From assembly GCA_947625405.1 (NCBI GenBank), contig CANQOF010000003.1, forward strand, positions 62,001 to 126,000: a DNA stretch of 64,000 nucleotides, written 5' to 3'. The notes beneath the pieces are model-generated. The model saw nothing but the letters and a program-made list of their open reading frames with translations, made no database searches and was not told where the DNA came from. Positions 7,462 through 57,217 of this stretch are shown piece by piece. Every line of letters begins with the position of its first letter. Within the stretch, counting starts at the first letter, position 1. The translations under genes were made by a program, and so were the position numbers. Source of the DNA: an uncultured Atopobiaceae bacterium. Its GTDB lineage: Bacteria; Actinomycetota; Coriobacteriia; Coriobacteriales; Atopobiaceae.

Positions 7462-7537
7462 GGGGATGTAGCTCAGCTGGGAGAGCGCGGGCTTTGCAAG
7501 CCTGAGGTCGTGGGTTCGAGCCCCATCATCTCCACCA
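7462..7537 (+). tRNA. tRNA-Ala (TGC)
   Basis: The acceptor GGGGATG pairs with CATCTCC (one G-T). The D-arm is GCTCAGCTGGGAGAGC, the anticodon loop contains TTTGCAA (anticodon TGC, Ala), the T-arm is GTGGGTTCGAGCCCCAT, and CCA is encoded. A TACACT -10-like hexamer lies at 7439-7444. The 3' third of this gene is repeated in inverted orientation just downstream. Confidence 0.96.
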
Positions 7538-7600
7538 ACGGAAAACTGGCCCGGCAACGCCGGGCCTTTTCCGTTGGTGGAGATGATGGGGCTCGAACCC
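7512..7600 (+). repeat. Fold-back: terminator flanked by inverted copy of the tRNA-Ala 3' end
   Basis: The 34 bases 7512-7545 (T-arm, 3' acceptor strand, CCA and 8 more bases) recur exactly as the reverse complement at 7567-7600. Between them GGCCCGGC (7548-7555) pairs with GCCGGGCC (7559-7566) around an AAC loop, leaving only a 2-nt CT bulge. The inner hairpin plus TTTT is a usable terminator. The outer arm is complementary to the tRNA itself. The copy stops at the T-stem and continues with GAGAGGGCAA. Confidence 0.9.
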
Positions 7601-7763
7601 GAGAGGGCAAGGCAAACGGCACCGCAAGCGGGCTCGTGCGGGAGAATGTAAGGAGAAACCTGAAAGCAGCCTAAGAAATGCCTGCTAAGGGCGAGGGTAT
7701 GTACCCCGCATCGAGCGGGGTGCGCAGCGAAAGCCCGCGCTACATGCCCGAGAGGAGACCACG
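7601..7763 (+). other. Gene-free leader of the glycosyltransferase operon, possible structured RNA
   Basis: There is no plausible ORF. The stretch begins with GAGAGGGCAA, includes a purine-rich part near 7640-7690, and has a hairpin ACCCCGC-ATCGA-GCGGGGT at 7703-7721 about 45 bp before the start codon. I cannot match it to a known riboswitch class by eye. GAGGAGA just before ATG 7764 is the ribosome binding site. Confidence 0.4.
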
Positions 7764-30850: not shown

Positions 30851-32713
30851 GTGCTTCAGGAGCAGCTTAGAAACGTCGCCATCATCGCGCATGTGGATCA
30901 CGGCAAGACCACGCTCGTGGACCAGCTGCTCCGCGCGACCGGCGCCTATCGCGAAAACCAGCAGGTGACGGAGCGCGTGCTCGATTCGAACGACCAGGAG
31001 CGCGAGCGCGGCATCACGATCCTCGCGAAGAACATCTCCATCACCTACGACGGCGTGAAGATCAACGTCATCGACACGCCGGGCCACGCCGACTTCGGCG
31101 GCGAGGTGGAGCGCGTGCTCAAGATGGCGGATTCGGCGCTGCTTCTCGTGGACGCCTACGAGGGCCCCATGCCGCAGACGCGCTTCGTGCTGCGCCACGC
31201 CATCGACGCGGGGCTCCAGGTGCTCCTCGTGGTAAACAAGATCGATCGCGACGGGGCAGATCCCGATCGCGCGGTGAACTCGTCGCTCGACCTCATGATG
31301 GACCTCGGCGCGAGCGACGAGCAGCTGGAATTCGCCCTCGAGCACGTGGTCTACACCTCGGCCGCGCGCGGCTACGCGCGTCTCGAGCCCGACGACGGCA
31401 ACATGGACATGCTGCCGCTCCTCGACACCATCATCGAGTGGCTGCCCGCCCCCGACGCCGACCCCGCGGCGCCGCTCGCGATGCAGGTGATGACGGTGGA
31501 CCACTCGAGCTACGTGGGCAGGATCGGCATCGGCCGCGTGTTTTCCGGCACCGTGCACGCGGGCGAGGGCGTGCTCGTGCTCAAAAACGACGGCGCGCGC
31601 GAGAGCGCCACCGTGAAGCAGCTCTCCACCTTCGACTACCTCGGCCGAAGGGACGCAAGCGAGGTGGAGGCGGGCGACATCTGCGCCGTCGTGGGCATCG
31701 ACGGCGTCGACATCGGCGACGTGCTCACGAGCCCCGAGGCCCCTCAGGAGCTCGCCCCCATTCGCATCGACCCTCCCACCATGGCGGTGATCTTCGAAGC
31801 CTCCACCTCGCCGCTCGTGGGGCGCGAGGGCTCGATCGTCGGCGGCCGCCAGCTCCGCGATCGACTCCTCCGCGAGGCGGAGAACAACGTGACGATGGAG
31901 ATCAGCGAGGTGGACGGCGAGGTCGCGGGCGGTGGCGTCGGCGGCATCGAGGTGAAGGGGCGCGGCATCCTCCATCTCTCCGTGCTCATGGAAACGCTTC
32001 GCCGCGAGGGCTTCGAGTTCCAGGTGGCCCGCCCGCGCGTGCTCTTCGCGAAGGGCGAGCACGGCGAGCGCCTCGAGCCGATCGAGCAGGCCGTCATCGA
32101 GTGCCCCGACGACGTCTCGGGCAAGATGATCGAGATCCTTGGCGGCGCGGGCGGCCAGCTCGTCTCCATGGCGTCGAACGGCACCACGTGCCACCTCGAG
32201 TTTTCCATTCCCACCCGCGGCATCCTCGGCCTCAAGAACCGCATCTTGAACGCGAGTCACGGCGAGGGCGTCTTCTACCACACGTTCCTCGAGTACGGCC
32301 CCTACGCAGGCGAGTTCGAGAAGCGCGCGAACGGCGCGATGATCTCGATGGCCACGGAGAAGGCGGTGGCCTACGCGCTCGGCACGCTCCAGGAACGCGG
32401 CCAGCTCTTCGTGGGCCCCGGCGATGAGTGCTACGAGGGCATGATCGTGGGCGAGCGCTCGCGCGCGGGCGATATGACCGTGAACGTCGCGCGCACGAAG
32501 AACCTCGGCAACCAGCGCTCCTCCACCGCCGATATCGCCGTCCAGCTCACCCCTCCGCGCACGTTCACGCTGGAAGAGGCCCTCGAATACATCGCCGACG
32601 ACGAGCTCGTGGAGATCACCCCCGAGAGCATCCGCCTCCGCAAGCGCATCCTCGACACCAACGAGCGCAAGAAGGACAACGTACGCAGGGGCCGGGTCGC
32701 GAAGCTGGCTTGA
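30851..32713 (+). CDS. typA: Translational GTPase TypA/BipA
   Basis: A 620-residue ribosome-associated GTPase of the EF-G/LepA class that helps 50S assembly and growth under stress. The G motifs are AHVDHGKTT (G1), RGITI (G2), DTPGHADF (G3), NKIDR (G4) and TSAA (G5). The TypA-specific C-terminal part (RGILGLKNRILNASHGEGV) is intact. GTG 30851 is chosen because AGGGAGG precedes it and translation from there begins just before the G1 motif; the longer open frame upstream has no family similarity. Length is normal. Confidence 0.95.
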   Translation: MLQEQLRNVAIIAHVDHGKTTLVDQLLRATGAYRENQQVTERVLDSNDQERERGITILAKNISITYDGVKINVIDTPGHADFGGEVERVLKMADSALLLVDAYEGPMPQTRFVLRHAIDAGLQVLLVVNKIDRDGADPDRAVNSSLDLMMDLGASDEQLEFALEHVVYTSAARGYARLEPDDGNMDMLPLLDTIIEWLPAPDADPAAPLAMQVMTVDHSSYVGRIGIGRVFSGTVHAGEGVLVLKNDGARESATVKQLSTFDYLGRRDASEVEAGDICAVVGIDGVDIGDVLTSPEAPQELAPIRIDPPTMAVIFEASTSPLVGREGSIVGGRQLRDRLLREAENNVTMEISEVDGEVAGGGVGGIEVKGRGILHLSVLMETLRREGFEFQVARPRVLFAKGEHGERLEPIEQAVIECPDDVSGKMIEILGGAGGQLVSMASNGTTCHLEFSIPTRGILGLKNRILNASHGEGVFYHTFLEYGPYAGEFEKRANGAMISMATEKAVAYALGTLQERGQLFVGPGDECYEGMIVGERSRAGDMTVNVARTKNLGNQRSSTADIAVQLTPPRTFTLEEALEYIADDELVEITPESIRLRKRILDTNERKKDNVRRGRVAKLA

Positions 32714-32840
32714 CGCTGCCTACAAACTTCCCACCTCTGACGTAAGACGGAAGAACCGTCCCCGATGTCTTGCCTCAAGGATTCGTGAACGGTTTTTGGC
32801 TGAAACAGCGCCCAGCCTCGCGGCTGGGATTCTGTAGCGG
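32714..32840. other. Gene-free segment after typA with small dyads
   Basis: Contains GACGG-AAGAA-CCGTC within AAGAC...GTCTT (about 32744-32772), and the hairpin CCCAGCC-TCGC-GGCTGGG at 32811-32828. The AGAACCGTCCCC core resembles REP-like repeats I recall from other Gram-positives. No gene is seen. Confidence 0.4.
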
Positions 32841-32976
32841 GCGGAGGAGGGTGGATTCGACGCATAAAACGCTTCGCGATTTTTGCCGGGCTTCGCGGCC
32901 CTCGGCGCGCTCCGCCCCGAAAAGAGCCACAAGGGCTCTTTTTGCCCTCTCGGGTTCGAATCCCCCCCTCCTCTGC
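32841..32976. repeat. Element bounded by inverted tRNA-Ser-3'-end-like sequences
   Basis: The left end GCGGAGGAGGGTGGATTCGA (32841-32860) and the right end TCGAATC...CTCCTCTGC (32956-32976) are imperfect inverted repeats. Both resemble the T-arm and acceptor end of the neighbouring tRNA-Ser. The 95-bp centre is GC-rich and includes a terminator-like hairpin. No ORF. It may be a tRNA-derived repeat unit. Confidence 0.65.
32920..32943. terminator. Terminator hairpin inside the tRNA-like repeat element
   Basis: AAAAGAGCC-ACAAG-GGCTCTTTTT has a 9-bp stem with A and T tracts on both sides, so it can act in both directions. It would stop typA transcription on the plus strand. Confidence 0.75.
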
Positions 32977-33054
32977 GAGAAACAAAAAGCCGGCCAAAAG
33001 GCCGGCGTTTTGTTTCTGGCGGAGGAGGGGGGATTCGAACCCCCGTGACGCGAA
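32950..33054 (-). repeat. Fold-back: terminator flanked by inverted copy of the tRNA-Ser(CGA) 3' end
   Basis: In transcription order, tRNA-Ser(CGA) ends at 33017. A terminator hairpin follows (GCCGGCC-TTTT-GGCCGGC, about 32988-33006, with AGAAAC/GTTTCT flanks). Then comes an imperfect inverted copy of the tRNA's own T-arm and acceptor end (32951-32976, a few mismatches and one extra base). The copy ends at the T-stem and runs into GAGAGGGCAA, as after tRNA-Ala. Confidence 0.8.
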
Positions 33055-33107
33055 AGGCGCCAAACGGTTTTCGAGACCGCCGCATTCAACCGCTCTGCCA
33101 CCCCTCC
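33017..33107 (-). tRNA. tRNA-Ser (CGA)
   Basis: The acceptor GGAGGGG pairs with CTCCTCC (one G-T), the discriminator is G and CCA is encoded. The anticodon loop CTCGAAA gives CGA. A long serine-type variable arm (TTTGGCGCCTTTCGCGTCA region) and the TTCGAAT T-loop are present. It lies downstream of tRNA-Ser(GGA) on the same strand. Confidence 0.95.
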
Positions 33108-33120
33108 GTTGAGGTAGCAC

Positions 33121-57178: not shown

Positions 57179-57199
57179 GCCTTGGTCGGAAACCAAGGC
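57179..57199 (+). promoter_or_regulatory. Hairpin leader upstream of rpmE
   Basis: GCCTTGG pairs with CCAAGGC around TCGGAAA, and the stem ends 18 bp before the rpmE ATG. L31 autoregulatory leaders have been described, including, as I recall, a Coriobacteria class. The site and size fit, but the motif match is not checked. TATCAT at 57162-57167 may be the -10 box. Confidence 0.45.
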
Positions 57200-57217
57200 A
57201 ATGAGGAAGGACACGCC

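Follow-up and report, generated by a model that had tools for sequence, protein, structure and literature searches.

Downstream of tRNA genes in Coriobacteriia there is a family of short repeats, each of which copies the end of the tRNA that it follows. At 70 loci, the T-arm is copied in antisense (A') and the 3' half of the tRNA is repeated in direct orientation (A''). These loci fall on 22 isoacceptors, nearly all of them in Coriobacteriia, and each fits its own tRNA. Along with the empty sites and arrays described below, this strongly supports the original prediction of a repeat family in which the host tRNA's end is copied. We lean, if only slightly, toward the view that the repeats are an insertion element without genes of its own, which would target the T-loop of the tRNA, renew the tRNA's 3' half along with its terminator, and depend for movement on an unidentified enzyme acting in trans. 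The findings point toward an inserted element of a self-tailoring kind that has not been described. Its novelty is provisional: no published account of such repeats was found in the open-access papers searched, and subscription papers and preprints were outside the scope of the search.

The window, i.e., the whole 64,000-nucleotide stretch that was analyzed, corresponds to positions 62001-126000 of contig C3 of a 1.72-Mb genome (G000), and it contains two of these loci (Table 1). At tRNA-Ser(CGA), the anatomy can be read directly along the minus strand, where the gene is followed by a terminator, A', a CCC-GAGA-GGG hairpin, a core, and finally A''. A terminator followed by an imperfect inverted copy of the T-arm and acceptor end had been predicted here, and the coordinates hold. 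Specifically, the T-arm part of A' (32952-32964) matches its own tRNA at 13/13 positions, and the inverted-repeat arms formed by the tRNA end and A' are paired at 91% over 33 nt and at 100% over 16 nt. The 136-bp unit with inverted termini is also real (32841-32976). A third tRNA-like end is indeed present at 32841-32860, but relative to the tRNA gene its orientation is direct, not inverted. This copy, A'', pairs with A' as helix P0. What is copied is the 3' half of tRNA-Ser(CGA) from the T-loop onward, and the direct repeat between the tRNA end and A'' reaches 79% over 39 nt. The hairpin past A'' is inferred to be a candidate for the original terminator. Two long minus-strand open reading frames (32431-33120 and 32720-33085) span the tRNA and the repeat; they are likely spurious, and annotation may call a protein there.

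Table 1. Positions of the tRNA genes and repeat features at the two loci of the window
Feature	Position	Strand	Basis
Host gene tRNA-Ser(CGA)	33017..33107	-	ARAGORN, Rfam
Proximal bidirectional terminator hairpin, GAAACAAAACGCCGGCC-TTTT-GGCCGGCTTTTTGTTTC	32979..33016	-	Sequence, inverted repeat
A', antisense copy of T-arm and acceptor 3' strand of tRNA-Ser(CGA)	32952..32976	-	Repeat/tail comparison
P1 hairpin CCC-GAGA-GGG with GNRA loop, opening the core; holds the GAGAGGG of the original prediction	32945..32954	-	
Core between A' and A'', with hairpins	32861..32951	-	Core family common to several tRNA loci of the genome
A'', direct copy of tRNA 3' half from the T-loop (TCGAATCC..., 18/19)	32842..32860	-	
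Distal hairpin CCCAGCC/GGCTGGG past A''	32811..32828	-	Sequence
Host gene tRNA-Ala(TGC), second locus	7462..7537	+	ARAGORN
Inverted copy, perfect over 34 nt, of the end of tRNA-Ala and the outer stem of the terminator (A' proper, 7588-7600)	7567..7600	+	
GAGAGGGCAA, start of truncated core at tRNA-Ala(TGC)	7601..7610	+	

At tRNA-Ala(TGC), the arms of the inverted repeat (7512-7545 and 7567-7600) are perfect over 34 nt, and no A'' was found at this locus in the window. The inverted copy at both loci was expected to end at the T-stem and to run into GAGAGGGCAA, and the coordinates confirm this; at the Ser(CGA) locus, the 10-mer lies at 32942-32951 on the minus strand, directly past A'. On its own, GAGAGGGCAA is not significant, with 5 matches in the window at one mismatch or fewer versus 4.74 expected. 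The genome-wide search for the 10-mer beside reverse-complement tRNA ends, which had been proposed as a check, was run with TTCGAACCCGAGAGGGCAA, the 10-mer extended into the T-arm antisense. With up to 3 mismatches it returned 6 matches in the genome and none for the reversed control, each of the six being located immediately downstream of a tRNA gene. A chance match of the 10-mer is ruled out as the whole explanation by these extended-pattern matches along with the shuffled-tail control described below. The shared GAGAGGGCAA survives in part: it consists of a T-stem complement plus a GNRA loop, but its final AA is incidental and it is not itself the conserved string. That string is (T-stem complement)-GNRA-(T-stem 5' strand), which reads CCC-GAGA-GGG here.

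The same design recurs throughout this genome. We compared the tails of all 46 tRNAs, scoring an antisense T-arm copy at a match of at least 11/13 within 110 nt. Eleven tRNAs passed, and the His match was merely the next tRNA's own arm, leaving 10 true carriers: Lys(TTT), Ala(GGC), Ala(CGC), Ala(TGC), Val(TAC), Arg(ACG), Glu(TTC), Leu(TAG), Leu(CAA), and Ser(CGA). In these 10, A' starts 49-59 nt past the tRNA end, behind a terminator, and A'' was also recognized by eye in 7, the exceptions being Ala(TGC), Arg(ACG), and Leu(CAA). Dinucleotide-shuffled tails gave a mean of 0.11 passing tRNAs and a maximum of 1 in 100 runs. The inference from two loci of one design to a repeat family is thus borne out by ten tRNAs in this genome and by the 70 complete loci overall.

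Beyond this genome, the dimensions of the repeat are consistent across loci inspected in many genera. A' starts 49-62 nt (median, 53) past the tRNA end, the core is 69-112 nt long at complete loci, and the repeat period is 152-197 bp (median, 179). A pattern of T-arm followed by its inverse was found in 144 of 296 genomes of the class, with no match to the reversed control. That figure is an overcount in that neighboring real tRNAs also fit the pattern, and a hand count gave 71/296 genomes with at least three places. The exact core pattern was found in only 2 of the 296 and, in an exact search, in two close relatives, both rabbit-gut Atopobiaceae metagenome-assembled genomes. We rejected a genus-only family: the exact core pattern is genus bound, but the architecture is class wide. 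Outside the class, six genomes had at least three pattern places, and the loci of three were inspected. Five loci from these genomes (L248, L250, L255, L258, and L262; genomes G605, G563, and G477), in the same phylum, have the order tRNA, terminator, A', core, and A'', with cores that are different and larger; the other inspected loci had A' alone or no recognizable tRNA in the stretch. Several of the five have in common an AGGGG(G) that follows A', as well as a stretch resembling GATACCAG. Separately, at tRNA-Arg(TCT) of genome G271 (L093), A' and A'' are present around an apparently unrelated core that has no P1 GNRA hairpin.

Our results reveal that the copies are tailored to their own tRNA. 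The comparison covered 63 loci, excluding further Lys(TTT) orthologues, and partners were shuffled 2000 times. A' matched its own T-arm at 12.25 of 13 positions and shuffled partners at 10.85, while the acceptor part of A'' matched at 10.56 of 11 positions and at 4.94 when shuffled; in neither case did any of the 2000 shuffles reach the observed value. Caution is needed, given that loci were picked by A' similarity, which favors invariant positions, but the search pattern left the variable T-loop positions free, and positions 59-60 were identical to the host tRNA in 59/63 loci. Furthermore, A' positions 2-12 each fit the host in 69-71 of 71 loci, and odd T-stems were followed. (Initially, 71 loci were scored; one, L066, was judged to be a neighboring real tRNA and dropped, and these per-position counts still include it.) The 8 nt on the 5' side of A' agreed with the host's acceptor complement at 7.11 of 8 positions, versus 3.26 when shuffled, at 9 loci of the window's genus, where the copy is long; at 54 loci elsewhere, the corresponding values were 2.89 and 2.31. 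Tailoring extends into P1, where the conserved string becomes CTC-GCGA-GAG or CCT-GAGA-AGG at tRNAs with other T-stems; tRNAs with T-stem GAG or AGG, respectively, can carry these variants. One locus at an AGG-T-stem tRNA (L103) is an exception in which P1 is not adapted.

Linkage to tRNA genes was also evident in searches of whole genomes. Two covariance models were run against four whole genomes and gave 51 match rows, 50 of which were examined, the remaining row repeating a locus. Forty-eight of the 50 lie downstream of a tRNA on the tRNA's strand; of the two exceptions, one is at a contig edge and the other is a weak match on the other strand. First copies sit approximately 50-62 nt past the tRNA, with one at 128, and the remainder are second copies of arrays.

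Comparison across species, which had been suggested as a further check, revealed that units are present in some species and missing at sister loci. In a survey of Lys(TTT) within one genus (43 genomes searched, 30 loci fetched), the distance from the tRNA end to the next gene was 259, 287, and 275 bp with the element (G224, G021, and G046) and 57, 98, 98, and 97 bp without it (G092, G024, G299, and G118). The difference in length is about one period, which is 180-181 at this tRNA. Empty sites have a plain tRNA-terminator layout. Lys(TTT) of G273 looks empty too, although its gene start was not matched. In another member of the genus (G048), the fetched tRNA tails contained no A' at 11/13 or better and had ordinary terminators. 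While the empty sites are observed, gain as their cause is inferred; loss in the empty lineages remains possible. We also observed tandem arrays, truncated copies, and solo A' copies. At Lys(TTT), the two 3' halves are identical past the tRNA end for 33 nt in G224 and for 41 nt in G046, genomes that have different core types, and the identical run is at least 40 nt in 11/68 loci. The right edge of the duplicated stretch varies between loci, and this is not a simple target duplication of fixed length.

Direct repeats of a tRNA 3' half are the normal mark of islands and prophages that integrate at tRNAs. It is conceivable that the repeats are decayed attachment scars of such elements, with A'' as attR and the unit as a remnant, and this typical signature, together with a prophage end beside the Lys(TTT) array in L240, speaks for it. 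Yet, cores of a related kind are found on 22 isoacceptors and their periods are uniform (152-197 bp), an antisense T-arm copy is foreign to the anatomy of attachment sites, and the prophage end in L240 joins at the acceptor end rather than the T-loop. We regard this origin as improbable. At the junction itself (L240:6850-7470), one end of a 37.7-kb viral contig is joined close to the acceptor end of tRNA-Lys(TTT), immediately upstream of the element array. Carriage by phages or plasmids was rejected as well: one f3-type unit (L170) had no blastn match in phage or plasmid collections, and one viral contig turned out to be the prophage end beside the array.

The units have a conserved fold. Among 53 elements that were folded, we found hairpins P1-P4 or variants, most of them closed by A':A'', and the sense fold, on the tRNA strand, was more stable in 52/53. 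Covariation was directly observed: in one alignment (A4; 12 sequences), two-sided changes occurred at 25/33 pairs, with 83 cells two-sided versus 7 one-sided, and in another (A3; 10 sequences) at 12/39 pairs. Four-base loops on the tRNA strand comprised 58 GNRA versus 4 GNYA, along with 69 GNA triloops. Strand preference, loops, covariation, and the complementarity of A' to its own T-arm are what one would expect of a structured RNA, in which read-through past the first terminator would make A', and pairing with the T-arm or A'' would serve as a switch on tRNA maturation or termination. The GNRA rule in particular is an RNA-like sign that is not obviously required by selection on DNA, and it counts against a DNA reading. 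However, G-U pairs made up only 2.3% of pairs on the sense and 2.6% on the antisense strand, compared with 10.0% and 5.7% in 129 tRNAs taken from the same loci. Given that, in contrast to tRNAs, G-U pairs are scarce and show no difference between strands, selection on the pairing looks to be at the DNA level. Moreover, the repeats are dispensable, being absent at sister loci and, as A', from the fetched G048 tails, and they belong to no Rfam family at cut-off. We therefore consider an RNA switch unlikely. The original prediction had left room for a conserved downstream control element in general; this alternative is not excluded, but it is weakened by repeats that are dispensable, that turn over, and whose pairing is not RNA-like.

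Known RNAs do not account for the repeat. No Rfam family other than tRNAs reached its gathering score, apart from an L31-Coriobacteria ribosomal protein leader (RF03128) elsewhere in the window (57179-57208). An sX4 match scored 47.4 bits, below the cut-off of 70, and covers the tRNA. With only tRNAs reaching the gathering score at the repeat, we rejected tmRNA or another known RNA; in our reading, the near-palindromic T-arm is all that makes the plus-strand start resemble tmRNA. We also rejected a gene for a tRNA-like RNA running convergently on the other strand, because the CCA is lost in several A' copies and the stable loops are on the tRNA strand.

Under the insertion reading that we favor, each period (median, 179 bp) would give the host tRNA an equivalent 3' half, from T-loop to acceptor and usually with CCA, and a terminator, followed by A' and a multihairpin core, and the displaced old 3' half of the tRNA would become A''. 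Because the unit supplies a replacement 3' half, insertion would leave the tRNA intact. The stretch from A' to A'' is predicted to fold in a cloverleaf-like manner, closed by A':A'', and the folded single-stranded DNA could be the substrate for a recombinase or transposase acting in trans; both the single-strand step and the enzyme are inferred. Tandem arrays may grow through repeated insertion or unequal exchange, and loss of one period could leave a solo A'. Host sequence would enter A' perhaps by snap-back copying across the terminator hairpin. The perfect fold-back across the terminator at Ala(TGC) suggests such snap-back synthesis from the host, although the copying is inferred. Weighing against the insertion reading are the lack of an identified enzyme, the GNRA loops, the largely vertical inheritance at Lys(TTT), and the variable right edge of the duplicated stretch. 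In its most far-reaching form, the proposal is one of self-tailoring, gene-less mobile DNA, in which one core writes the host tRNA 3' half, sense and antisense, into each T-loop insert, occupies almost any tRNA without killing it, builds integron-like arrays, and is mobilized in trans by way of a folded single strand. We put this forward as a serious but tentative possibility.

The repeats could also have arisen with no enzyme of their own. Slippage during replication, together with switching of templates at the terminator hairpin, could produce snap-back copies and tandem duplications, which gene conversion would homogenize; the perfect Ala(TGC) fold-back speaks for this, and arrays and solo A' copies do exist. 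A common core whose hairpins are conserved from tRNA to tRNA and from genus to genus is difficult to obtain through local slippage, though, and the downstream copy re-enters at the T-loop in 70 complete loci. Slippage as the sole process thus seems very improbable.

With regard to insertion by an enzyme, none has been identified for movement of the element. The Y1 transposase domain PF01797 occurs in 12/20 genomes with repeats and in 5/15 with few or none. It is absent from four carriers, namely, this genome, G290, G154, and G186, and we rejected a Y1/RAYT transposase as the mover on that basis.

By analogy, the repeats appear to work in a way closest to that of integron cassette arrays or of integrative elements at tRNA sites, yet defining features of each fail. 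Integron cassettes (attI/attC, IntI) are also tandem units in one orientation with a single insertion site, a folded hairpin site closed by short complementary boxes, and strand-asymmetric stability; the repeats differ in having no open reading frames, in using the tRNA T-loop as their site, and in carrying a tRNA 3' half and terminator in each unit. Integron attC boxes read GTTRRRY and RYYYAAC. The repeats do not meet them, as their boxes follow the host tRNA: the commonest A'' junctions are GCG|TCGANTCC, GCG|CGANTCC, or GCGG|GANTCC, and A' is GGANTCGAACC. Integrative elements that cross over in the T-loop duplicate the tRNA 3' end directly and restore the tRNA after insertion. The 70 loci likewise have units bounded by a direct repeat of the tRNA 3' end, with empty sites elsewhere, but the unit is ~180 bp and gene-less, a period of 152-197 bp leaves no room for an integrase, and one core family is found on 22 isoacceptors with an extra antisense T-arm copy.

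Other systems share fewer features. REP/BIME repeats associated with RAYT (Y1) transposases are short, noncoding, and palindromic, with strict pairing and presumed movement in trans, all of which has a parallel here; in contrast, the tRNA repeats occur only downstream of tRNAs, contain long host-derived repeats, and are found in four carriers without PF01797. Casposons and Cas1 integrases have target preference and array growth beside a leader. These are analogous, but the tRNA repeat lacks constant terminal repeats and its duplicated stretch has a variable right edge. MITEs are short and gene-less with inverted termini, as are the tRNA repeats, whose termini instead copy the host site and are not constant among copies, without target-site duplication of fixed length.

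To our knowledge, known tRNA-targeting elements are each tuned to one tRNA and carry their own integrase. In the present case, a single short core family is spread over at least 22 isoacceptors and fits the host each time. If mobile, the element must copy host sequence during insertion, a mechanism that we know of in no bacterial element. Why hot spots of integration lie at tRNA ends, an old question, becomes directly testable. More generally, the tRNA tails of these gut bacteria contain additional attachment-like sites and antisense open reading frames, which annotation may misread.

Relationships among cores give a mixed picture. Much inheritance is vertical, with the Lys(TTT) element at the same place in many related species. 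For f1 cores, likeness was 0.737 between different tRNAs of one genome versus 0.676 for the same tRNA across genomes (0.663 without Lys(TTT)). For f3 cores without Lys(TTT), it was 0.769 within a genome versus 0.736 for the same tRNA across genomes; including Lys(TTT) reversed the trend (0.804 for the same tRNA versus 0.769). The Ser and Arg cores of G285 are 92% alike, whereas the Ser cores of G285 and G000 are 73% alike. Finally, among three G285 loci (L041, L043, and L045), the stretch after the core reads TCGACTGTGCGC at two, with the rest of the tRNA end further on, a layout suggestive of a second, short insertion at the T-loop position.
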